Source of the DNA: Candidatus Gastranaerophilales bacterium
GTDB lineage: Bacteria > Cyanobacteriota > Vampirovibrionia > Gastranaerophilales > Gastranaerophilaceae
Direction: 5' to 3'
NCBI GenBank assembly: GCA_944324345.1
Contig: CALUVT010000003.1
Coordinates: 248,001-312,000, forward strand
Length of the DNA stretch: 64,000 nucleotides
Part shown: one piece after another, positions 11,725-61,969 of the stretch
Numbering within the stretch: position 1 is the stretch's first letter
How the letters are laid out: the number at the start of each line of letters is the position of its first letter
Program-made: the position numbers and the translations under genes
Notes under the pieces: model-generated
What the model saw: the letters and a program-made list of their open reading frames with translations, nothing else
Databases searched by the model: none
Told to the model about the DNA's origin: nothing

Positions 11725-13368
11725 TTATGTACTGAACATTGTAAATACTTTTTCAACATTCTTACTGATAAGGTTTTTAACAGTATCGTATTCTGTTGTT
11801 AAAGCAGACAATTCAGTATCTATGTTTTTCATTTTTACATCAAGAGTTTCTTCTTTATAGTTTAACTTAGTTTTAGTAAGTTCATATTCCATTTCAGCCT
11901 GTGCAATAGCCTCTTCATCAGTAACTTCTGCAACATAGCCGTTTAATGTATACGCTCCTTGATAAAAATAACCGTCTGTATTCAAACTTGAAATAAACAA
12001 TTGACCATTTTTTAAAGCCTGCATAAGATATTCAGGGTCATTAATCATATCACGCTTTATAGAGTCAGTTGTAGCTCCGTTAACACATAATTGGTTAAAT
12101 AATTGGTTGTAAAAATCAGTGGTTAACAAATCTGTCTCAGTGACAGAATTTTCACTCTCGAGGAAAAAGTAATAAGTAACATCATTTGTAACATAAGAAC
12201 TCTTACCAACTTCAGTATCAACATTGAACTGAGTTCTTGATGCCCCATCCATTGCAACCGCAAAATTTGTCAGATAAGACTTTAACATATTTGTTAAACT
12301 TAATGACTGTGTTCCCCCGCTATCTGCTACCATACCGTTGTAATTATTAGCTCCGTTCATACATCCGTTAATTGCATCATACTGAGACTCTGCGGATATA
12401 GAATTTGCATTCCCGGTATATTTTGATTTTGTAAATTCGTAAGCTACAGCCAAAGCATTACTAGATTCATAATCAACATTTAATCCATCTCCACTTGGCG
12501 TAGTTGAACCAGGATTATATCCTAATGCTTTTGCAATTGTTTTTAACATGTAATCTTGAACTTCTTCTGCAGAGAAATTTGAACCCAATTTTGTAATTGT
12601 ATATTTCCCTGACAGTAGATCTCCAAGAGACAATTTCTTTAGCTGCTCCCTTGAAAGTGCAGAACCATTATTGGTTATAACAAATTTGCCCTTGTTTGCA
12701 CCATAAATATCATCCGGATAAGTATTATAACAGAATTTGCTATCGTACGCTGCATCAACATTTCCATCAGAAACAGATATACCAAGCATATCAAGTACAC
12801 TTACCCCGAACAAAGGATTTCCTTCATCATCCTTTGTACCAAGCTTATTTATAAAAGCATTTGTTGTCAAAACATTAGCAATTGTCTTGTCTAAAATCTC
12901 TCCACCTATGCCGGATTTTGTATAGGCATTTGCTATAACAGTCTCAGCCGTAGAAGATGCGACCTCACCATTCTTAGCCAAGAATGTCATAAATTTATCA
13001 CGGGCATCTTTACTTAATGTGCCTATCGGATCGCCATTTTTATCAATAATATTAGCATTAACAGCAGCCTGAAACATTGTATCTGTTAAAACAAGTTTAC
13101 CTTGAGTATCAGTTATTAAATAAGGATTATAATCGTTTAAAGCCGACGGGGTCATTAATAAATTGTAAGACAAATCATAAACTTCATCGGTATCTGTATC
13201 CCAAACAAGTTTTGTAGCATTCATCGCATTTTGATATTTTGTTGCAGCAGACTGCAAATCACGGGTAACGGAAAGTTTGTCTTGTGCAATCTGCATAGAT
13301 TGAAACTCACAATTCATCTTTCTTGATGTTATGGCTAAAAATCTTGCTTGTGATGCTGCCAATCCCAT
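11725..13368 (-). CDS. Uncharacterised coiled-coil protein, MG(L/M)AASQARF family, copy 1
   Basis: Not assignable to a described family. The 547-residue protein starts MGLAASQARFLAITSRKMN and ends in a long charged coiled coil, with LSALTTEYDTVKNLISKNVE closing the chain. The same head and tail occur in the protein at 60830-61969, while the middle differs in sequence and length. There is no Sec signal peptide or membrane segment. Helical conserved ends around a variable middle is the general plan of flagellin-, hook- and type III filament-type proteins, but that comparison is only architectural. Composition is rich in Asn, Ser, Thr and Asp, as in secreted or surface proteins. It is followed on the same strand by the phage cluster, from which it is oriented away. 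Confidence 0.7.
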   Translation of the reverse strand: MGLAASQARFLAITSRKMNCEFQSMQIAQDKLSVTRDLQSAATKYQNAMNATKLVWDTDTDEVYDLSYNLLMTPSALNDYNPYLITDTQGKLVLTDTMFQAAVNANIIDKNGDPIGTLSKDARDKFMTFLAKNGEVASSTAETVIANAYTKSGIGGEILDKTIANVLTTNAFINKLGTKDDEGNPLFGVSVLDMLGISVSDGNVDAAYDSKFCYNTYPDDIYGANKGKFVITNNGSALSREQLKKLSLGDLLSGKYTITKLGSNFSAEEVQDYMLKTIAKALGYNPGSTTPSGDGLNVDYESSNALAVAYEFTKSKYTGNANSISAESQYDAINGCMNGANNYNGMVADSGGTQSLSLTNMLKSYLTNFAVAMDGASRTQFNVDTEVGKSSYVTNDVTYYFFLESENSVTETDLLTTDFYNQLFNQLCVNGATTDSIKRDMINDPEYLMQALKNGQLFISSLNTDGYFYQGAYTLNGYVAEVTDEEAIAQAEMEYELTKTKLNYKEETLDVKMKNIDTELSALTTEYDTVKNLISKNVEKVFTMFST

Positions 13369-13731: not shown

Positions 13732-15021
13732 CTAAAGTGTTATAGGCCAATAAAAATCGACCAGATATGATGCTGCATCCATTGGATGTGATAAAAATTT
13801 TAAATCTTTCGACTGTTTTATCTGTTGATAAGTCGGAATATCAATTTTTGATGAACCCTCTTTATAACGAAGATTGTAAATATTATAAAGCAGTTTTTCA
13901 CATTTCTTGTCGACAAATAAACAAATTTCACCATCTGCCGAACGTACCTTAGCATTGAATGCCATAATCCTGTTTTTTATTGGAGGATTAAAAGCTTTAA
14001 TTTGAATTTCTGCATCATAACCGTATTGCAAAAGTTTTTTCTTTATTATTACGTAATTCGTATACTCACTTGTACAACTTCTATTATCTCCTGAGGCATC
14101 ACCGTTTACTATTATTCTTCCTTTGTGATTAGGGTATCTCCTGCAAAATTCATCACAAGCTTTTGCGGTTGTTGTATTTTCCATTGCAATTTCGTCGAAA
14201 TAAAAAACTTTATCATCAGTCTTGTGTGCAAAAACCCAGCACATCGGATCAACGTTAAAGTCACAGGAAATATGTAAATCCATATCCGGCTGATATGTAA
14301 TATCTTTAACATTTGCGTCGCTAAAATCTTTTATGACAAGCCCGTTATTATACTCACCATTCTGTGCCAGTACGAAAATATTATAATACTGCTCGTCATA
14401 AAGTTTTTTAAGTTCATCACAAAAACCTTCCGGTAAATAAATATTTTGAGTAGTGGGAGCAGTTATTAGCCTGTAATTCGGTGCCGAATTTTCAATAAAT
14501 GTTTTATATACCCAGCCTCTATGCATTTCAGGATTTGTATGACCAAATATTCGATAGGTAAAATTTCTCCAAGCCTTTTTTACCCTCTGCCTCATTCTCC
14601 CTAAAAGCATCTTAAATGTATCATAGGGAATGTCTGACATCTCCTCAATTTCTACAAATCCAAGATTTAAAGATTTTAACTTGTTAGGTTCATCAAAATG
14701 TCTGAAAAGAATCTCTGATCCATTCTTGAAAGTCAATTTTTGTAAAGAAGAAGACCATTCATAATCAACTCCTTCAATAAAGCCAAAATTTTCCAAATGT
14801 TCAAAATAAGTTTGTAATGTAGTATCCCTAACCAGAGTGTAAGTTTGGGCTCCTACAAGGCCTCTTACCCCGGGAAACTTTAAAGCAAGCAAAATCCCTA
14901 AAAGAGACCCCGCAAAAGTCTTTCCCGAACCATAGCCTCCCTGATAAACCGCTACATCCAAAGTATAATTATGAGGAATTTCCAAAAATTCCCTCTGTGC
15001 CTTCAATAATTTGTATAACAT
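13732..15021 (-). CDS. terL: Phage terminase large subunit
   Basis: The DNA-packaging motor: an N-terminal ATPase pumps DNA into the procapsid and a C-terminal RNase H-fold nuclease cuts the concatemer. Walker A is GGYGSGKT at about residue 28, Walker B is FVEIEEMSD at about 123. The nuclease domain shows SCDFNVDP near residue 250 and NGDASGDNRS near 305, providing the expected acidic metal ligands. At 429 residues it is the usual length for the Terminase_3/PBSX-like group. It follows the portal gene across a perfect hairpin. All motifs look intact, which argues against decay. Confidence 0.93.
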   Translation of the reverse strand: MLYKLLKAQREFLEIPHNYTLDVAVYQGGYGSGKTFAGSLLGILLALKFPGVRGLVGAQTYTLVRDTTLQTYFEHLENFGFIEGVDYEWSSSLQKLTFKNGSEILFRHFDEPNKLKSLNLGFVEIEEMSDIPYDTFKMLLGRMRQRVKKAWRNFTYRIFGHTNPEMHRGWVYKTFIENSAPNYRLITAPTTQNIYLPEGFCDELKKLYDEQYYNIFVLAQNGEYNNGLVIKDFSDANVKDITYQPDMDLHISCDFNVDPMCWVFAHKTDDKVFYFDEIAMENTTTAKACDEFCRRYPNHKGRIIVNGDASGDNRSCTSEYTNYVIIKKKLLQYGYDAEIQIKAFNPPIKNRIMAFNAKVRSADGEICLFVDKKCEKLLYNIYNLRYKEGSSKIDIPTYQQIKQSKDLKFLSHPMDAASYLVDFYWPITL

Positions 15022-15037
15022 AATTTAACTATCCAAA

Positions 15038-15066
15038 GCAGTAGTACCTTAAAAAGGTACTACTGC
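15038..15066 (-). promoter_or_regulatory. Perfect 13-bp hairpin overlapping the portal stop codon
   Basis: The arms GCAGTAGTACCTT (15038-15050) and AAGGTACTACTGC (15054-15066) are exact inverted repeats around a 3-base loop. The right arm contains the portal gene's last codons. No run of T follows on the minus strand, so it is not a classical terminator; an mRNA processing or stabilising element, or a protein operator, fits better. It sits 16 bases before the terL start. Confidence 0.75.
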
Positions 15067-16724
15067 TTATCATCACTGAGCAAAAAGTTATTTGCATTCT
15101 CTATACCATACTGTTCTAATGCGAATTTAAAACATTCCAACCAATCAATTTTTTCTTCAACTTCGGGGACTTGGGCAAATGAACTTACAACTTCAAAAAG
15201 CTCCTTCAATCTTGCTTTTCGTTCAAATGTAGCTTTTCTGTCACCATACCTGTAAATATAATTTGCATTCCTTATTTCATCAGTTATTTCAAGGAAACTT
15301 GTTTTACCTCTATCATTTACACCAATTACTTCGTTACCTAGTTTGAAATAAGATATAATTTCTGCAGTTTTTTCAACCATTGGAACAATGATTTTCCTGT
15401 TTATGGCATCCAGTATCATATTCAAACGTGCTTCCTGACCGCTTACGGAATAATTTAATTCTGTTGCAGTACGCTGTGCTGATTGAATATTTCCTGCCAT
15501 ATTTTTAAAGATTCCTGTTGCACTCTCAATGGTTGATTTAAAGTAGTTTAAGAAATCCCAGCCAACCATGGCTTTATCAAATGATAAAGGTGTAGGAGCT
15601 GTAGGCATAAGAGCTGCATCATATTCAATAATTTTACCGGGACGTACATCCTGTTGACCTTTAAAACATCCTTTGGGGGCAAGATATGGAGGATTCATCA
15701 TTAGTGCAAGGGCATCTATTTGTTTATTCATTATTGTAGATGCTAGGTTATTTAATACTAATGCAACCCTTAAAGGTGAAATACCCCTTTTTGTCTGAGG
15801 TGATTCAATTATATTTGCGTGGATAAAGGGATTTATTACAAAAGGATTGCTCTCAAATCTTATAATTTCCCTTCTTGCAGCTACTACAATTAACCAATTT
15901 TTTAAAAGCCTGCCGTCTGAAAGTTCAATATCTCCCCAATATTCCAATATTTCAACCTTTTTACCTTCTACGGCTCCATCGTTATCGTCATTGTTTGGAT
16001 ATTTTTTACCGGCCACCACTCCTTTCAATACTTCAAGTTTTCTTTCATCTAAAAGATTGTTAGCTTTATCTGAAAATAATTCATCAATTGTTGAATAAGT
16101 TCGGTAAATTTTTGCACACTTGTCCCAGTTATCACGGTTATATTTATCAAATACAAAGTCTTCCGAATTAATATATTTAACTTTTGCATTATCATAAATT
16201 ACTTTTTCATCTATCACAAAACCCCTTTTTTCAGGATTCATAATCTGTTCTTCAATTGTTTGGGCTCTTCTTATTGATTTGATTTTAGTTTCCCAACCAA
16301 CAAAAAGAGTACTTTCTCCGGTTTCTACAATACTGTCTATAACCTTTTCAATTTCATCTTCAAGCTTCATATTCTCAAAAGTATTTACAAGCATTGCCTT
16401 TTGTTTATTAGCAAAACCTTGAGTTTGCGGAGTTGTTCCACCTACATCAAACATCGCATCAGGATGAGAATATAGGTTTTCACTTATATGAGATTTAAGA
16501 GTTTGTGCAAGCTCATAAATATCCGGGAGTTCAATTGTACTATCCCAACTGTTTATTCTGGATACATTTGAATTATATATCGCATCTCTTACAAGCTTTA
16601 TGTCACTAAGCTGAGTACTACGCTGCTCATTATAACGATCATATTTCTCCGTTATATTACCTAATAAAAAACTTTCCTCTATAGGGGAAAGCGTCTGTGT
16701 TAAATCTTCTGAATCTATTTTCAT
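15060..16724 (-). CDS. Phage portal protein
   Basis: A 554-residue protein recognised as a short-tailed-phage portal, the dodecameric ring at one capsid vertex through which DNA enters and leaves. The evidence is length, an acidic N-terminal head region, the central segment ISPLRVALVLNNLASTIMNK, and the later NYFKSTIESATGIFKNMAG / RTATELNYSVSGQEARLN stretch that forms the long stem and clip helices in portals. It lies between the GNAT gene and terL, the usual place. No frameshift or gap is visible. The exact portal subgroup (P22-like or T7-like) cannot be settled by eye. Confidence 0.82.
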   Translation of the reverse strand: MKIDSEDLTQTLSPIEESFLLGNITEKYDRYNEQRSTQLSDIKLVRDAIYNSNVSRINSWDSTIELPDIYELAQTLKSHISENLYSHPDAMFDVGGTTPQTQGFANKQKAMLVNTFENMKLEDEIEKVIDSIVETGESTLFVGWETKIKSIRRAQTIEEQIMNPEKRGFVIDEKVIYDNAKVKYINSEDFVFDKYNRDNWDKCAKIYRTYSTIDELFSDKANNLLDERKLEVLKGVVAGKKYPNNDDNDGAVEGKKVEILEYWGDIELSDGRLLKNWLIVVAARREIIRFESNPFVINPFIHANIIESPQTKRGISPLRVALVLNNLASTIMNKQIDALALMMNPPYLAPKGCFKGQQDVRPGKIIEYDAALMPTAPTPLSFDKAMVGWDFLNYFKSTIESATGIFKNMAGNIQSAQRTATELNYSVSGQEARLNMILDAINRKIIVPMVEKTAEIISYFKLGNEVIGVNDRGKTSFLEITDEIRNANYIYRYGDRKATFERKARLKELFEVVSSFAQVPEVEEKIDWLECFKFALEQYGIENANNFLLSDDKQ

Positions 16725-16744
16725 TTTTTTGCCCTTTCAATTAT

Positions 16745-17245
16745 TTATTTATATGTATTGAATACAGAATATAATTCTATATCCTGCAAATTTCCTTTTC
16801 TTAAGGTCTCTTGTTTTAATAATGCTTCTTTTTTAAACCCTGCATACTTTAAAAGAGTCTTTACTCTAAAATTTTCGGGGTAAACAAGTGCTTTAATTTT
16901 CACAAAATTGTATTTTTCAAAGCAATAATTTAAAAAAATTTTGGCACAATATTTCGTATAATTACCCCAAAATTTTCTGTCAAAACATGTTGTTAATTCA
17001 GCACTATGAAGTCTTTCTCCATCACCGATTACATTATCTAAATAAACAAAACCGCTAACGTGGTTATTTTCAGTAATTACAAAAAAGAATGGTTGAGTCC
17101 TTAAAATGAGGTTGTAAAAATATTCATAAACGGATAGGCCATTTAAAGCATAGTCATCATCCAGATATTTTGAATATTTTGTATATAAAAACAAAGCCTG
17201 TTCGAAATATTCAGGTTTTGCGAAAGGTGTTATGAATTCTGTCAT
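16745..17245 (-). CDS. GNAT-like N-acetyltransferase in the phage cluster
   Basis: A 166-residue protein with GNAT-fold features: FFFVITENNHVSGFVYLDNV resembles beta strands 2-3, then AELTTCFDRKFWGNYTKY precedes the acetyl-CoA-binding helix, and VYPENFRVKTLLKYAGFKKE is the typical motif B with Asn and the 'L...GF' ending. GNAT enzymes transfer an acetyl group from acetyl-CoA to an amine; the phage target is unknown. Such genes are common next to portal genes. The start codon overlaps the stop of the upstream gene by one base, so the two are translationally coupled. Confidence 0.7.
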   Translation of the reverse strand: MTEFITPFAKPEYFEQALFLYTKYSKYLDDDYALNGLSVYEYFYNLILRTQPFFFVITENNHVSGFVYLDNVIGDGERLHSAELTTCFDRKFWGNYTKYCAKIFLNYCFEKYNFVKIKALVYPENFRVKTLLKYAGFKKEALLKQETLRKGNLQDIELYSVFNTYK

Positions 17246-17595
17246 TAAAATGTTGCCTTTTCAAATTTTATATATGAATCTTCAGTTGTGAAAGCACTTA
17301 ATTCTCCGGCAAGCATTTTTTTTCTGACAGCATCCTGTATCCCTATTAAAGCGTCTGCCTGTATCCCGTTTACAAATGTTTCACACTTTGTATTTCTGTT
17401 GAAACAGCGAAAGACTGAAACTTTTGAAAAAATTTTGTCTTTAGGAACATCTTTTATATTTGTATATTCATGTTTTTCGGGTTTTTCTTTCGATTTTTTC
17501 AAATCTTCCATAAACTCTTTTTCTATACGCATTTTAATCAACTCATCTAAAGATGCATTGTTCAAAAGCATTTCTTCTGCATTATTATTTTTCAT
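17245..17595 (-). CDS. Phage protein of unknown function
   Basis: A 116-residue protein not recognised. It is charged and Lys/Glu-rich at the N-terminus (residues 1-60) and more compact afterwards, with two Cys in a CFNRNTKC arrangement at about residue 63. AAGGAG lies just upstream of the ATG. Its placement between the small terminase and the portal-side genes suggests a role in packaging or head assembly, but that is only positional. Confidence 0.6.
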   Translation of the reverse strand: MKNNNAEEMLLNNASLDELIKMRIEKEFMEDLKKSKEKPEKHEYTNIKDVPKDKIFSKVSVFRCFNRNTKCETFVNGIQADALIGIQDAVRKKMLAGELSAFTTEDSYIKFEKATF

Positions 17596-17613
17596 TAAAT
17601 CTTCTCCTTTTTG

Positions 17614-18048
17614 CTAAATTTTGTCATCATCCAGATTTGAAATAGTTACTATTTTTGCCTGTTTATAACCATCTTCATCCTGATTAGTATTAAAGCCTAA
17701 ATATTTACATAAGCTTTCCAGAGCTTTCAATCCGGCTGAGGTATCTCTTAATTTTTTCTTACCTGTTGCAATCCCCTCCTTATCAAGAATATCTTCTTCT
17801 TCAAGAGAGAATTCAGCTATCTGCAAAAGTTTTTGAATGACATAACCCTTATTTACTCTTAGTGAGGATATCTGTTTTTTTAGCTGATATTTAATCTCGT
17901 TAATAATCGCATCTCTTGACAGGAGATCTGATGCAACAGTTTTTAAATCTTTTGATTTATATCCCGCTTTTTGAGCAGAAAGCTCTCCGTTTAATGATTT
18001 AATGTATTCTAAAACAAATTTCTTTTGTTGGTTTGTTAACTTTTTCAT
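17614..18048 (-). CDS. terS: Phage terminase small subunit
   Basis: A 144-residue DNA-recognition subunit of the terminase, which selects the phage DNA and hands it to TerL. The N-terminus LTNQQKKFVLEYIKSLNGELSAQKAGYK matches the Terminase_2 pattern: a helix followed by a helix-turn-helix with the 'A..AGY' turn (residues 21-29). A central helical oligomerisation part and an acidic C-terminus ending LDDDKI complete the family plan. It is separated from terL by three genes, which is unusual because the pair normally sit side by side. Confidence 0.82.
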   Translation of the reverse strand: MKKLTNQQKKFVLEYIKSLNGELSAQKAGYKSKDLKTVASDLLSRDAIINEIKYQLKKQISSLRVNKGYVIQKLLQIAEFSLEEEDILDKEGIATGKKKLRDTSAGLKALESLCKYLGFNTNQDEDGYKQAKIVTISNLDDDKI

Positions 18049-18179
18049 GGTCTTTTAAATTTGTTTAATTATGTACTTTCGTTACAAATCTTCGTATAAT
18101 TTGTGTTTTTTCAAAAAAAATTGTATAATAATCATGCTATTTATATTTCGGCTAGTGTAAATCTTAACAGGAGGGGAAA

Positions 18180-18254
18180 ATGAATTTTAAACTTCCTGTT
18201 TTTTTTGCCCGACGGAATGTTGGGGAGCCTGCTGGTTTAAAATTAGAACTTTGA
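18180..18254 (+). CDS. Tiny divergent ORF (24 codons) with a strong ribosome site
   Basis: Reading opposite to every other gene in the phage cluster, an ATG at 18180 is preceded by AGGAGG with 5 bases between. It encodes a 24-residue basic peptide beginning MNFKLPVFFARRNVGEPAG and ending at TGA 18252. A TATAAT-like box lies about 50 bases upstream near 18124. The peptide has no recognisable family. It could be a leader peptide, a small toxin or regulatory peptide, or a chance ORF in a structured RNA. The local sequence is richer in GC than its surroundings. Confidence 0.4.
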   Translation: MNFKLPVFFARRNVGEPAGLKLEL

Positions 18255-18260
18255 CATTAT

Positions 18261-18273
18261 GCAAAGACTTTGC
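18261..18273. promoter_or_regulatory. Short palindrome in the phage intergenic gap
   Basis: GCAAAG and CTTTGC face each other around a single A, a compact dyad suited to a dimeric repressor. It is in the 262-base gap 18049-18310 between terS and the connector gene. That gap otherwise holds the tiny + strand ORF, so it may be the control region of the cluster. Function inferred from symmetry only. Confidence 0.35.
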
Positions 18274-18310
18274 CTGTTCAAGTTCACTTTAATTCCCAAT
18301 CTTATTTTTA

Positions 18311-18988
18311 TTATCTTCTGTGGATTTTAACTGAAGGGAAATCATCCATACTTGATGATATTCTTGCACGCAAGTTTGTTAATGCCTCCTTATACATGCT
18401 GTACCAATAGCTGAATCGGACATGTTCCGGATTACCTTTTAATCTCATACAGGAACCATACACAAGTATTGGCTCTACAAAAGGTTCCGGAATCAAAGAA
18501 GAATCATTCTCATCATCCATCAATGATTTTTCTTCACTGTCAGAATTTTTTGCATAATTTTTTGTGTAGTATATAATCTCTAGAGTTTTGTCCTTATTAA
18601 AAACAGGAAACAAAATTTTATCATTAAACAAACTATACGTATTTTGAGGTTGAGCATTAACAAAAAATTCCTCAAAGTCTTGATAATATTCAAACTTGTT
18701 ACCATCTGCAATTACTGCCTCAATTCTTCCATCTATAGTGTTTTCAACTTCTCCGGAACCTGCCGGTAATATGATATCTTTTTTACGAAGCAAAAAATCC
18801 CATTTTTCTGATCCGCAAACATCATTATTTACTATATTCAATATATTCTTTAACTTTTTATGATCATTCTTTGTTAATTCCGAAAATGAATTAACCTGCT
18901 TGTAATTTAGTTCTACAAGACATTTGTTGATAAGTTCTAAGTAATTCATAAATTCCCTTTCATGTAATCTTTCAGGAGAAACAGCCAT
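18311..18988 (-). CDS. Head-to-tail connector/adaptor-like phage protein
   Basis: A 225-residue protein. Its segment LELINKCLVELNYKQVNSFS followed by NDVCGSEKWDFLLRKKDI resembles the N-terminal helical region of podovirus adaptor or tail-tube A proteins (T7 gp11 / P22 gp4-like), with the typical 'L-N-x-x-L-x-E-L ... V-x-S-F' opening and the later 'W-x-F-x-x-R'. Such proteins bind under the portal and close the head after packaging. The first ATG has six G residues upstream; a second start at 18949 has AAGGG and is also plausible. Assignment rests on pattern recognition, not on a profile search. Confidence 0.55.
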   Translation of the reverse strand: MAVSPERLHEREFMNYLELINKCLVELNYKQVNSFSELTKNDHKKLKNILNIVNNDVCGSEKWDFLLRKKDIILPAGSGEVENTIDGRIEAVIADGNKFEYYQDFEEFFVNAQPQNTYSLFNDKILFPVFNKDKTLEIIYYTKNYAKNSDSEEKSLMDDENDSSLIPEPFVEPILVYGSCMRLKGNPEHVRFSYWYSMYKEALTNLRARISSSMDDFPSVKIHRR

Positions 18989-25745: not shown

Positions 25746-27101
25746 TTAAATTTGCACATCTTTCATCATATCAATAAGTGTACTAACAGTTGTATCCATA
25801 CTTACGATATCAGATGTTCTTTGTTGAAGAAATGCATTTATTTTCGGCATAAGTTCAATTGCGACATCCAACCTTGGGTTAGTTCCCGGCTGATACATCC
25901 CAACATCAATCAAGTCTTTATTTTCACGATACAAAGCCATAAGAGCACGCATTTTTCCGGCAGCTTCTCTATGCTCTGGAGTAACAATGGATGACATAAG
26001 CCTTGAAATACTTCCCAAAACATCTATTGCTGGATAATGGTTCATCTCAGCCACTTTCCTTGAAAGGAAAATATGCCCGTCAACAATACCTCTCACAATA
26101 TCTACAATCGGATCAGAAATATCATCACCTTCCATTAATACCGTATAAAGAGCTGTTATAGAGCCTTTAGGGCTGTTACCTGCTCTTTCAAGAACCTTTT
26201 GAAGCCAAGAAAATATTGAAGGAGGGTAACCTTTCATTGTAGGAGGTTCTCCCAAAGACAAGCCTACTTCACGTCCCGCCATAGCACAACGAGTAACAGT
26301 ATCTGTCATAAGAAAAACTTTCTTACCCTGATCTCTAAAATATTCACAAACAGCAGTTGCTGTCAGAAGAGCTTTTTGACGAATTAAAGGCGGTTGATCC
26401 CCGGTAGAACAGACAAGAACAGACTTTGCCATGCCCTTTTCCCCCAGAGCATCTTCCACAAACTCTTTTACTTCACGCCCACGTTCTCCAATCAGAGCTA
26501 CAACGTTAACATCAGCATCAGAATTTCTTGCAATCATACCTAAAAGAGTACTTTTACCGACTCCTGAGCCTGCAAATAAGCCTAAACGCTGACCGCAGCC
26601 CATTGTCATACAGCTGTCTATAGCTCTTACTCCGGTCGAGAATATTTCCGTTATAATCGGTCTTTCAAAAGGGCCAGGAGGAGGACCTTCAACGGCACGC
26701 CACGTAGCACCTGTTGTATCAAGTGGTTTCCCGTCAATTGGCTCTCCCATAGGGTTTATAAGCCTACCTAGCAAAAAATCTCCAACAGGAATAATAATCG
26801 GGTTGCCTGTGGATGTAACAAGACTCCCTTGTCCTATACCTTCACCATCATAAAGTAAAAGTAATTGTGCAACTTCACCTTTAAAAGCCTGAACTTCAGC
26901 CGGTTTTTTACGTCCATCCTTAGTTTCAACGTAACACAAATCACCAACTTTCAAACCTGGTAATTTTACCTCAACAGTCAAACCTAAAAGTTTTGATACA
27001 CTGCCCTTATAAGTAAACAATTCTGTTTCATCAAGCTTATTTTTTACTTTGACTTTTAAGTCATCTAATCTGCTTGTATCCAATCCTTCCATATCATTCA
27101 T
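25746..27101 (-). CDS. fliI: FliI/YscN-type export ATPase (isolated)
   Basis: The hexameric ATPase that energises flagellar or type III secretion export. Walker A is GSGVGKST at about residue 179, GERGREVKEFVE and MTDTVTRCAMAGREV are the family's next conserved blocks, and QPGTNPRLD is the type III-specific C-terminal motif. The 451-residue length is right, and the family-specific N-terminal domain is present, so it is not an F1 beta subunit. No other flagellar or secretion gene is in the window. No clear Shine-Dalgarno precedes the ATG. Whether it serves a flagellum or another export system cannot be judged here. Confidence 0.92.
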   Translation of the reverse strand: MNDMEGLDTSRLDDLKVKVKNKLDETELFTYKGSVSKLLGLTVEVKLPGLKVGDLCYVETKDGRKKPAEVQAFKGEVAQLLLLYDGEGIGQGSLVTSTGNPIIIPVGDFLLGRLINPMGEPIDGKPLDTTGATWRAVEGPPPGPFERPIITEIFSTGVRAIDSCMTMGCGQRLGLFAGSGVGKSTLLGMIARNSDADVNVVALIGERGREVKEFVEDALGEKGMAKSVLVCSTGDQPPLIRQKALLTATAVCEYFRDQGKKVFLMTDTVTRCAMAGREVGLSLGEPPTMKGYPPSIFSWLQKVLERAGNSPKGSITALYTVLMEGDDISDPIVDIVRGIVDGHIFLSRKVAEMNHYPAIDVLGSISRLMSSIVTPEHREAAGKMRALMALYRENKDLIDVGMYQPGTNPRLDVAIELMPKINAFLQQRTSDIVSMDTTVSTLIDMMKDVQI

Positions 27102-45763: not shown

Positions 45764-45935
45764 AATTATTCTCTCTATATATACTATATATATATAAAGT
45801 ATTTTATTATATTTTTATTGCTCAAATTTTATAATTTATTAAGTAATGTAAAGTTCAATATTTCAAAAGTTAAAGTTTTTCACGAAATTAGCCGTTCAAA
45901 ATACTAAGGAAACAATAAAAAAGGGATTTGATGTT

Positions 45936-46433
45936 ATGGCAATGAGTGTTTACAATGCACAATACAAATTAGGAATTGACACAAGTGTTTTAAAACAAGT
46001 TTCACAAGAAATTTTGAAACGTGCTGCAGAAAAAAACAGTCAATATAACACTTCCGCATCAAGCAATAACATCTTTAAAACAACAGATTTGGGACTTGAT
46101 TTGTACAAAGGCAATGTCGATACAAATGTTGCAAGACAAGTAGCAATGAACAATTCAGGTTTTCAAATTCAATTAAATTCAAATGTTTTACAATCAATTC
46201 AATATTTGAATGCAAAAGCTGCACAAAATGTACAGAAAAATGTTGAAGGCAAGATTACAATGGCCCTCAATGAAGGAGTTGGACACGTTCAAAATAGAGA
46301 TGCAGCACCAAAATTTAACAGTATTATAAGTATGTCAACCGGTAAGGATAAAAACGGTTCGGCACCATCATACAAAGGAGAATTCCTTTTCATAAAAAAA
46401 GATAAAGAACAGGAAGAAGCAAAAGCAATTTAA
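45936..46433 (+). CDS. Uncharacterised Asn/Gln-rich protein
   Basis: A 165-residue protein with no recognised family. It is rich in Asn, Gln and Ser and mostly helical, beginning MAMSVYNAQYKLGIDTSVLK. No signal peptide or membrane segment. Composition resembles the coiled-coil proteins elsewhere in the window. A 15-bp hairpin ends it, shared with the convergent neighbour. Confidence 0.6.
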   Translation: MAMSVYNAQYKLGIDTSVLKQVSQEILKRAAEKNSQYNTSASSNNIFKTTDLGLDLYKGNVDTNVARQVAMNNSGFQIQLNSNVLQSIQYLNAKAAQNVQKNVEGKITMALNEGVGHVQNRDAAPKFNSIISMSTGKDKNGSAPSYKGEFLFIKKDKEQEEAKAI

Positions 46434-60829: not shown

Positions 60830-61969
60830 TTATCCGAATGTCTTGAATGTTGATTCTGTGTTCTTTTCAATAACTTTCTGAACCGCATCCATTTCTGTTT
60901 GAATTGCATCTTGCTCTGTGTCAAGCTGTTTTAATCTCAATTCAAGGTTTTTATCTTGTGCTTGAATGATTTCTATCTTGGCATTAATATCGTTTATTGA
61001 CTGATCATACTCTTGTTTGTCAAATTCATATTGATTCATAGCATCCTCATATGCTGCCTGATCAGTTACGGTGGATGTAGTTAAGGAATAGGTTATTTCA
61101 TTTGCCCCATCACCGCTTGGTATAGTGATATTAATATACCTTCCAGAACTGTCTTTTTCTAATTTACAGCCTTCAACAGCCTTTACTTCTTCAGTTTTTG
61201 TTTCACTGCCTACAGAGTAACAGTTGATATTTGACTGAGAATTGCCGTTTGCATCGTAATTAGCGACTTCCAAATCAGATTGTTTATAGAAATAAGGGAC
61301 GTATTCTCCTGTTGAAGAATTTTTAACATATCTGATTAGATAATCTCCATCACCATATTTCTGTTTTAGAAGCTCAAGATATTCTTCTTCTTCTTTTTGA
61401 AGATTTGCAAGCTGATCAGCTGATAAAGAATTTAAGTATTCATCGTCACTGTTAAGCTTAACTTCTTTGTCCTTTGCATCTACTTCAGAGCCCGGTTGGA
61501 AATCTTCAGTAGAATAATATTTTTTGTCTTGAGAATTGTAATAAGCAATTGTGCCATCAATAGTGTAAGAAAGTTTATCTGACATATTTCTCAAAGTTGT
61601 AGCACCAACTCTGTAAACCCAATTCCCTTCAGTACCGGATTTGTTTACAATACTTGTAGCTGCAGTAACAACTGAAAAATCATCTTTCCACTGTCTTGTA
61701 TAACTTACAGAATAAGTTCCGTTTGCTTGTGCAATCATTGCTGTAATTTGGTTTGTTAAAGCTCCATCTTCGAAAGTGTACACAGTTTTTGTGTAATCGT
61801 CGACAGACGGAGGTACAGGTACTGACATACCCAACAGATCGTTGTAGTAGTTAGCTGACTGATTTGACAATGTTGTTCTCTGTTGGTTAATCTGTTGACC
61901 TTCATACTCAACATTGGTTTTTCTGGCTGTCAGACCTAAAAATCTAGCTTGTGACGCTGCCATTCCCAT
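60830..61969 (-). CDS. Uncharacterised coiled-coil protein, MG(L/M)AASQARF family, copy 2
   Basis: Paralogue of the protein at 11725-13368: it starts MGMAASQARFLGLTARKTNV, then QQINQQRTTLSNQSANYYND, and ends LRLKQLDTEQDAIQTEMDAV followed by KNTESTFKTFG. Only the two ends match; the 379-residue protein has a much shorter middle. There is no signal peptide or membrane segment. The terminal coiled coils suggest self-assembly, as in filament-forming proteins exported by type III-type systems, but no direct evidence. AAGGAAG lies upstream, and a terminator follows. Confidence 0.7.
   Translation of the reverse strand: MGMAASQARFLGLTARKTNVEYEGQQINQQRTTLSNQSANYYNDLLGMSVPVPPSVDDYTKTVYTFEDGALTNQITAMIAQANGTYSVSYTRQWKDDFSVVTAATSIVNKSGTEGNWVYRVGATTLRNMSDKLSYTIDGTIAYYNSQDKKYYSTEDFQPGSEVDAKDKEVKLNSDDEYLNSLSADQLANLQKEEEEYLELLKQKYGDGDYLIRYVKNSSTGEYVPYFYKQSDLEVANYDANGNSQSNINCYSVGSETKTEEVKAVEGCKLEKDSSGRYINITIPSGDGANEITYSLTTSTVTDQAAYEDAMNQYEFDKQEYDQSINDINAKIEIIQAQDKNLELRLKQLDTEQDAIQTEMDAVQKVIEKNTESTFKTFG

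Follow-up and report, generated by a model that had tools for sequence, protein, structure and literature searches.

A conserved second flagellum-related export system in Gastranaerophilales and a family of paralogues that are likely its substrates

Two paralogous genes and a FliI-type export ATPase gene were found in a stretch of 64,000 nucleotides (the window) from a Candidatus Gastranaerophilales bacterium, corresponding to positions 248001-312000 of contig C3 in genome G000, a 1.76-Mb assembly of five contigs that is 99.93% complete. Comparisons of this genome with its relatives give good support to the existence of a conserved second flagellum-related export system, and the paralogues, of 547 and 379 amino acids (aa), are likely axial or surface substrates of it. 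The most likely reading, to which a probability of about 0.75 is given, is that the members of their family are exported as filament-like axial components by an organelle that derives from the flagellum, does not rotate and stands apart from the flagellum. A preliminary description of the window had already proposed that both proteins could be substrates of a FliI-driven export system; the sigma-28-type promoters and the conservation of the machine as a second system, present in relatives alongside a true flagellum, go beyond it. The relatives examined were 58 genomes, of which 35 belong to the same family (f1), 22 to other families of the order and the remaining one (G057) to another family of the class, and a wider phylum sample comprised 386 genomes, 170 of them from f1.

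Table 1. Features of the window discussed in the text, with positions counted from its first nucleotide
Feature	Position	Strand	Basis or remark
547-aa family member	11725..13368	-	BLASTP, N-terminal profile, alignment
Sigma-28-type promoter-like site TTAAAG-N14-TGTCGTCAA	13424..13452	-	ends 55 bases upstream of the start codon (ATG) of the 547-aa gene; matrix score 25.7 and pattern
FliI-type export ATPase, second (non-flagellar) system	25746..27101	-	subfamily score, FliI tree, gene order in relatives
379-aa MG(M/L)-A-A-x-Q-A-R family member	60830..61969	-	BLASTP, profile, predicted structure, fold searches
Sigma-28-type promoter-like site TTAAAG-N14-TGTCGATAA	62014..62042	-	ends 44 bases upstream of the start codon (ATG) of the 379-aa gene; matrix score 31.4 and pattern

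It was observed in the FlhA tree (44 rows, with groups named beforehand by score against the FlhA of G000) that 17 second-type rows, including the FlhA of G000, lay on one side of a branch supported by 100/100 and were adjoined by three rows from f9 and f11, while a further 23 rows stood apart; these included the order's own flagellar FlhA, and E. coli FlhA joined their side on a long branch. Nine genomes contributed an FlhA row to both groups, namely G377, G180 and G379 of f1, and G037, G042, G043, G044, G045 and G049. The FliI tree (11 rows) separated the window FliI and five FliI adjoining second-type FlhA from four flagellar FliI, again at 100/100, one f9 FliI falling on the second side with a long branch. 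Moreover, five genomes (G045, G039, G044, G037 and G042) carried the classic order FlgB-FlgC-FliE-FliF-FliG-FliH, four of these stretches also containing FliI, and elsewhere the order FliE-FliF-340 aa-FliH-FlhA. In several genomes, this second operon was followed by FliI, FliJ, FliK and FlgEFG, or had FlgG-FlgG-FlgB-FlgC in front, and the orthologue of the window FliI was found directly after the second-type FlhA in several relatives.

These arrangements bear on how partial flagellar gene sets in these bacteria are understood. Flagella or their loss have been described in PMC3787301, PMC5877343 and PMC4040986, and in the passages available from these papers such sets are regarded as flagella being lost, under which the genes discussed here would be the remains of a degenerating flagellum and the paralogues unrelated to them. 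In accordance with this view, flagellin, the FliG torque domain and the MotB stator were unmatched in the sampled f1 genomes: Flagellin_N (PF00669) was found in 0/35 of them vs 21/22 genomes from the other families of the order, which served as a positive control, FliG_C (PF01706) in 0/35 vs 20/22, always as a single copy, and MotB_plug (PF13677) in 0/35 vs 20/22. However, neither the FlhA nor the FliI that was kept is the flagellar copy; flagellated relatives possess both types, which fall into separate, fully supported groups. Most of the 20 genomes bearing FliG_C hold both systems, and since flagellated relatives carry the second operon separately and the FlhA and FliI trees split with full support, the genes are not those of a decayed flagellum. 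In the phylum sample, in which flagellar and second-type FlhA were told apart by E-value and counted by eye, the flagellar type was kept in 51 of the 170 f1 genomes (E 3.2e-246 or lower); among the 119 without it, 117 kept a strong match (E 1e-180 or lower) with second-type scores, and the other two, G107 and G262, gave partial FlhA matches only. The 17 second-type FlhA in the tree were all whole frames, of 691 to ~705 aa. Degeneration is therefore very unlikely, and genes that are usually taken for the relics of a lost flagellum seem instead to encode a new sort of working organelle. The non-f1 genome G047 (87% complete) had no match to flagellin, FliG_C or MotB_plug and kept FlhA, FliP and seven family matches, which may reflect a separate flagellum loss or an incomplete assembly.

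The preliminary description had noted that the ATPase stood alone in the window, and this held, as FlhA, FliP, FlhB, rod proteins, flagellin, FliG_C, MotB_plug and secretin were all unmatched inside it. The type III core is nevertheless complete in the genome, and the five gate proteins FlhA/SctV, FlhB/SctU, FliP/SctR, FliQ/SctS and FliR/SctT, for which a search had been suggested, are all encoded (FlhA, which is intact, at C1:447100-449088, FliP at C1:215611-216186 and FlhB at C2:385734-386759). FlhA was matched in 57 of the 58 relatives, the sole miss being G057, and FliP gave the same result. FliE (65.3 vs a cut-off of 22.4 bits), the MS-ring protein FliF, the stator protein FliH (PF02108, 82.3 vs 24.1 bits), a ring protein of the FliN/SctQ type, FliO, FliQ and FliR exceeded their Pfam cut-offs; the FliN-type protein did so for FliMN_C while remaining under the NCBIfam cut-offs for FliN and SctQ. 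FlgB (59.3 vs 59.05 bits) and FlgC (102.2 vs 102.1) were barely above the NCBIfam cut-offs, three proteins exceeded that for FlgEFG (70.25), and FliK (28.7 vs 29.8 bits) and FliJ (22.3 vs 28.4), under their Pfam cut-offs, are probable only. A sigma factor of the FliA/WhiG family scored 247.9 vs an NCBIfam cut-off of 189.6 bits. The window ATPase itself reached 540.8 bits with the FliI/YscN subfamily model TIGR01026 (cut-off 379.5) and was under every FliI or SctN equivalog cut-off shown. The motifs NPTH of FlhB and GSGVGKST of FliI were read in the sequences.

Four groups of these genes were recognized in G000: FliE-FliF-340 aa-FliH-FlhA; FliN-type-FliO-FliP-FliQ-118 aa-FliR; FlhB followed by a small sigma factor, with FlgEFG, FliK and FliJ 5 kb further on the opposite strand; and FlgF/G-FlgF/G-FlgB-FlgC, with the FliA/WhiG-family sigma factor ~4 kb off. 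The export genes are thus spread round the genome, and the window FliI is one scattered member of the set. The FliG position of the first group, between FliF and FliH, is occupied by a 340-aa protein without known family (L032:5293-6315), which recurs in the second operon of relatives, with two neighbouring matches in G045 and G040. When it was compared with seven flagellar FliG by hhalign, 29 columns were aligned with a probability of 3.4% and E 0.013, a value that refers to one comparison, and the reversed control gave E 0.28.

Two further proteins of the export loci were observed. The 118-aa protein between FliQ and FliR (L035:10792-11148) gave a weak match (E 0.12) to a T2SS/T3SS pilus N-domain (type II and type III secretion systems). 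A 492-aa protein encoded on C3 of G000, 5.2 kb past the window end (L031:5223-6701), contains only the cytoplasmic half of FlhA, with PF00771 positions 321-655 following ~140 unmatched residues, and at least two FHIPEP matches were found in 34 of the 35 f1 genomes; its sequence raises the question of whether this half-FlhA could be a soluble second docking platform.

As regards the paralogues, the preliminary description of matching ends and unlike middles was confirmed at both frames. BLASTP aligned the 379-aa and 547-aa proteins over residues 1-35 (18/35 identical, E 1e-9) and over a C-terminal segment (24/78 identical, E 3e-8), and beyond these two ends it found nothing at E under 0.03, the next stretch having E 0.037. 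A 61-position N-terminal profile, built from four of the complete members, matched 11 places in G000 (E 1.9e-35 to 5.4e-6), corresponding to nine complete genes, which range from 108 to 762 aa, and two truncated at contig ends; these genes are mostly single and dispersed round the chromosome. In an alignment of 14 members, M1, G2, Q7, R9, L11, E21, E359, K369, N370 and F375 (379-aa numbering) were invariant, D350, T351 and E352 were almost so, and the middles failed to align. Neither window paralogue exceeded any Pfam or NCBIfam cut-off or matched PHROGs at E 0.01; no flagellin model was among the matches of the 14 members at E 0.1, and PF00669 had none in the genome. Profile searches of solved-structure sequences remained at chance level, both with the family (best E 0.32) and with the 108-aa members (best E 0.41). 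The lack of a Sec signal noted at first sight was also upheld, by a crude measure that involved no signal-peptide predictor: in the first 35 residues of nine members, the best 11-residue Kyte-Doolittle mean was 0.40-1.31, compared with 1.92-2.96 in three more hydrophobic Sec-signal proteins of this genome used as controls.

The expression signals of these genes link them to a flagellar-type regulon. The pattern YTAAAG-N14-TNNCG, which resembles the FliA/SigD consensus, was found close before the start of nine of ten members in G000, the 108-aa gene being set aside. Sigma-28-type promoters form the late class in flagellar regulons. In other genomes, 80 loci among the matches listed supplied 90 family genes that had 120 bases or more upstream, and the pattern with a spacer of 14 preceded 58 of the 90 vs 1 of 376 other frames (minimum length 200 aa); 13 alternative spacers gave 0-5 of the 90, and shuffled upstream regions a mean of 0.07. 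As these 90 genes are kin and come from one retrieval, they do not represent independent events. A weight matrix was trained on 57 of these sites from other genomes, and in 257,509 bases of G000 chosen around hits, the only site outside the family that scored 17 or more was found in L052 (17.3). The bare pattern occurs three times in the window vs 1.24 expected, so that the count is weak evidence and it is the positions of the sites that matter. A weaker sigma-28-type site (14.0) was also found 37 bases before a 165-aa frame (window positions 45870-46433), which may be another late gene.

The distribution of the family follows that of the second system closely within the order. The 379-aa query matched 57 of the 58 relatives at E 0.001, the weakest being a single match in G049 (E 7.5e-4), and the N-terminal profile matched 175 of the 386 phylum genomes, including all 170 of f1 by our own count, with 2-16 matches in each f1 genome, three others of the order (G039, G040 and G045) and one f10 genome of the class, with four copies; a lone weak match (E 5.3e-5) in one distant genome is taken as chance. 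In G000, as in all three same-genus FlhA stretches (L155, L159 and L160), a cluster consisting of a 324-419-aa family member, a 272-aa glycine-rich protein, a 90-aa protein and a 108-110-aa member lies ~4-8 kb upstream of FliE. This cluster was not seen in the stretch examined of G033 and G034, and the 108-aa gene was present in nine of the 80 loci within the flanks covered.

It could be argued that the retained parts serve some other job, such as type IV pili, and that the family is unconnected with them. A precedent is offered by the non-flagellated Lysobacter enzymogenes, in which, as reported in PMC7277350, genes resembling the flagellar type III secretion system (FT3SS) were kept, exported a heterologous flagellin and were tied to twitching; likewise, the one secretin match in G000 adjoins a PilB-type gene. 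However, rod proteins and FliE would be superfluous for pili, and the family is tied to a flagellar-type regulon both by the sigma-28-type sites and by its almost identical distribution within the order; this explanation is highly improbable.

The predicted structure is consistent with axial proteins of the flagellar kind. The terminal helices anticipated by the preliminary description were recovered in the 379-aa protein, the one of the two that was folded: its AlphaFold2 model (pLDDT 86.8, pTM 0.51) has two long ones, at 2-47 and, C-terminally, at 304-378, round a beta-rich middle with strands mostly in 60-302 and a longer helix at 184-205. When this model was compared by Foldseek with 350,542 PDB chains, ranks 1-8 were chains of flagellin, flagellar filaments or cap-filaments (rank 1 having E 7.7e-4 and being the only one under E 0.001), and flagellar cap, filament, junction, hook and rod chains filled 23 of the top 24 rows of VIA-align, at Z 7.0-9.9, a range graded as middling by the tool, for which values under 8, or under ~13 with long helices, possibly indicate a mere common arrangement. 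The likeness is read as an agreement of the model with flagellar chains in plan and ends, which does not prove homology. For the 108-aa orthologues (eight rows), the model was a helix hairpin, 2-46 and 53-106, with pLDDT 86.2. A fragment of the IpaB coiled coil filled the top three Foldseek rows for this hairpin (E 0.02); nevertheless, no translocator role is assigned to it, as VIA-align scored the IpaB fragment level with generic coiled-coil hairpins. Needle proteins were absent from the Foldseek rows shown, which proves nothing either way.

A type III apparatus whose family members are secreted soluble effectors or adhesins, the middle being the active part, would also agree with several of these observations, such as the 2-16 members per f1 genome, the lengths of 108 to 762 aa, the unalignable middles and the mostly scattered single genes. 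However, conserved helical ends would be needed for assembly and not for export, and the fold matches are to flagellar axial chains. Twin copies of the family, moreover, are identical within three of three genomes and 0.73-0.89 identical between them, as would be expected of abundant structural subunits, which is no proof. Secreted effectors or adhesins are, on balance, rather unlikely.

Under the preferred reading, of axial substrates of a flagellum-derived organelle, a sigma-28-type factor would turn the family genes on late, and their products would leave through FlhA/FlhB/FliPQR and then the rod channel. The terminal helices would pack into a non-rotating filament or tip displaying the variable beta domains, and the 108-aa member, with two helices and almost no middle, could be a basal, needle-like subunit. 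That the paralogues build a filament is plausible, with about as much to be said on either side. The proposal of FliI-driven export made in the preliminary description gains from the complete gate, the helix-ended model and the flagellar fold matches, and neither of the two findings that the description gave as grounds for refutation, a genome lacking every gate protein or a structure lacking paired terminal helices, was obtained.

Several points weigh against this reading. Export, a filament and a basal body are inferred from genes and predictions. The exact spacer-14 pattern is missing before 32 of the 90 family genes, and also before a 416-aa member of G000 near the FlhA operon. The 379-aa model was built on an alignment of 14 rows, the TM-scores of Foldseek ranks 1-8 were 0.09-0.16 with rmsd of 26 Å or more, and an unrelated channel reached a VIA-align Z of 8.5, inside the range of the flagellar rows; this poor agreement over the whole fold leaves the helical ends, and the order in which they occur, as the basis of the likeness. 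The absences recorded cover flagellin, FliG_C and MotB_plug, while FlgH, FlgI, FlgD, FliD, FlgK, FliS and further FliM/FliN were not searched. A dedicated outer-membrane exit was not found in G000, its sole secretin being that beside the PilB-type gene, which the export system could conceivably share. Finally, eight f9 genomes and one f11 genome have FlhA and no family member detected by the N-terminal profile, so that, at this sensitivity, machine and family are not strictly coupled; in these genomes the substrates may differ.

Compared with known systems, the organelle proposed here shares with the bacterial flagellum the gate, FliE, FliF, FliH and FliI, a probable FliJ and FliK, a rod resembling FlgB, FlgC and FlgF-G, a FliA-type sigma factor and sigma-28-type sites before axial-type genes. 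It differs from it in that flagellin, FliG_C and MotB_plug were not found in the f1 genomes, the 340-aa protein stands at the FliG position, and the new family replaces flagellin. An export core without a motor is a trait shared with the injectisome, or non-flagellar type III secretion system, whose needle subunits are helical hairpins, as predicted for the 108-aa member. In contrast to the injectisome, FliE and the rod proteins are of the flagellar kind, FliI is under the SctN equivalog cut-offs shown and the system has no adjoining secretin; needle and translocon families were unmatched among the proteins scanned, no genome-wide search having been made. The family proteins themselves resemble flagellin, FliD, FlgL, FlgE and FlgG in the predicted succession of helix, beta-rich variable middle and helix and in the non-Sec-like N-terminus, and differ from them in the lack of any Pfam match over cut-off, PF00669 included, and in the low global TM-scores.

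Retention of flagellar export genes without a flagellum is shared with Lysobacter enzymogenes (PMC7277350), whereas here a separate paralogous system is found, which also accompanies true flagella and has a substrate-like family of its own. One paper (PMC3787301) listed two flhA among the flagellum-related genes of one genome, and a second system was not named in its available passages. In the literature covered on flagella and type III secretion of Melainabacteria, Gastranaerophilales and Vampirovibrionia, whose scope left out most subscription journals, the passages available described neither the second system nor the family.

Were this a working organelle in its own right, gut commensals of a whole order would possess a surface machine that has escaped study, with as many as 16 variable family members per genome, which would bear on host contact and immunity. 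Gastranaerophilales, relatives of the cyanobacteria, inhabit the human and animal gut and are mostly uncultured. Moreover, a flagellum-derived and apparently non-rotating export system would be a case for studying type III origins and motorless function. It is an even question whether this represents a third kind of type III nanomachine, motorless and with a filament of sigma-28-controlled pseudo-flagellins that carry exchangeable surface domains, are homogenised or shuffled by gene conversion and have outlasted the flagellum.

Gene conversion is suggested by the comparison of family copies. The twin copies lie at two loci 17-19 kb apart and are protein-identical within each of the three genomes examined; between genomes, they are 73-89% identical, and three flanking genes are 87-97% identical. 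The interval between the twins was considered as a mobile element, a reading discarded because its gene content and gene order are largely conserved among the three genomes; owing to this conservation, the twins look like two fixed loci evolving in concert. Two adjacent members in L056 (4914-9235) are 99.0% identical in DNA across their first 288 bases and 95.9% across their last 461; outside the two ends BLASTN detects no similarity, as if the middles had been swapped as cassettes. The simplest reading is that the conserved ends may mediate gene conversion or recombination.

Other observations concern more distant genomes and the surroundings of the paralogues. In f9 and f11 (L172, L173 and L175), FlhA stands next to the second type in the tree, with FliI alongside in L172 and L173, and five distant genomes of the phylum (L164-L171, L182 and L183) each carry two full-length FlhA from different tree groups. 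In the window, phage-like genes (large and small terminase, a head-tail adaptor and a weak tail match) occupy positions 13732-18988, upstream of the 547-aa gene.
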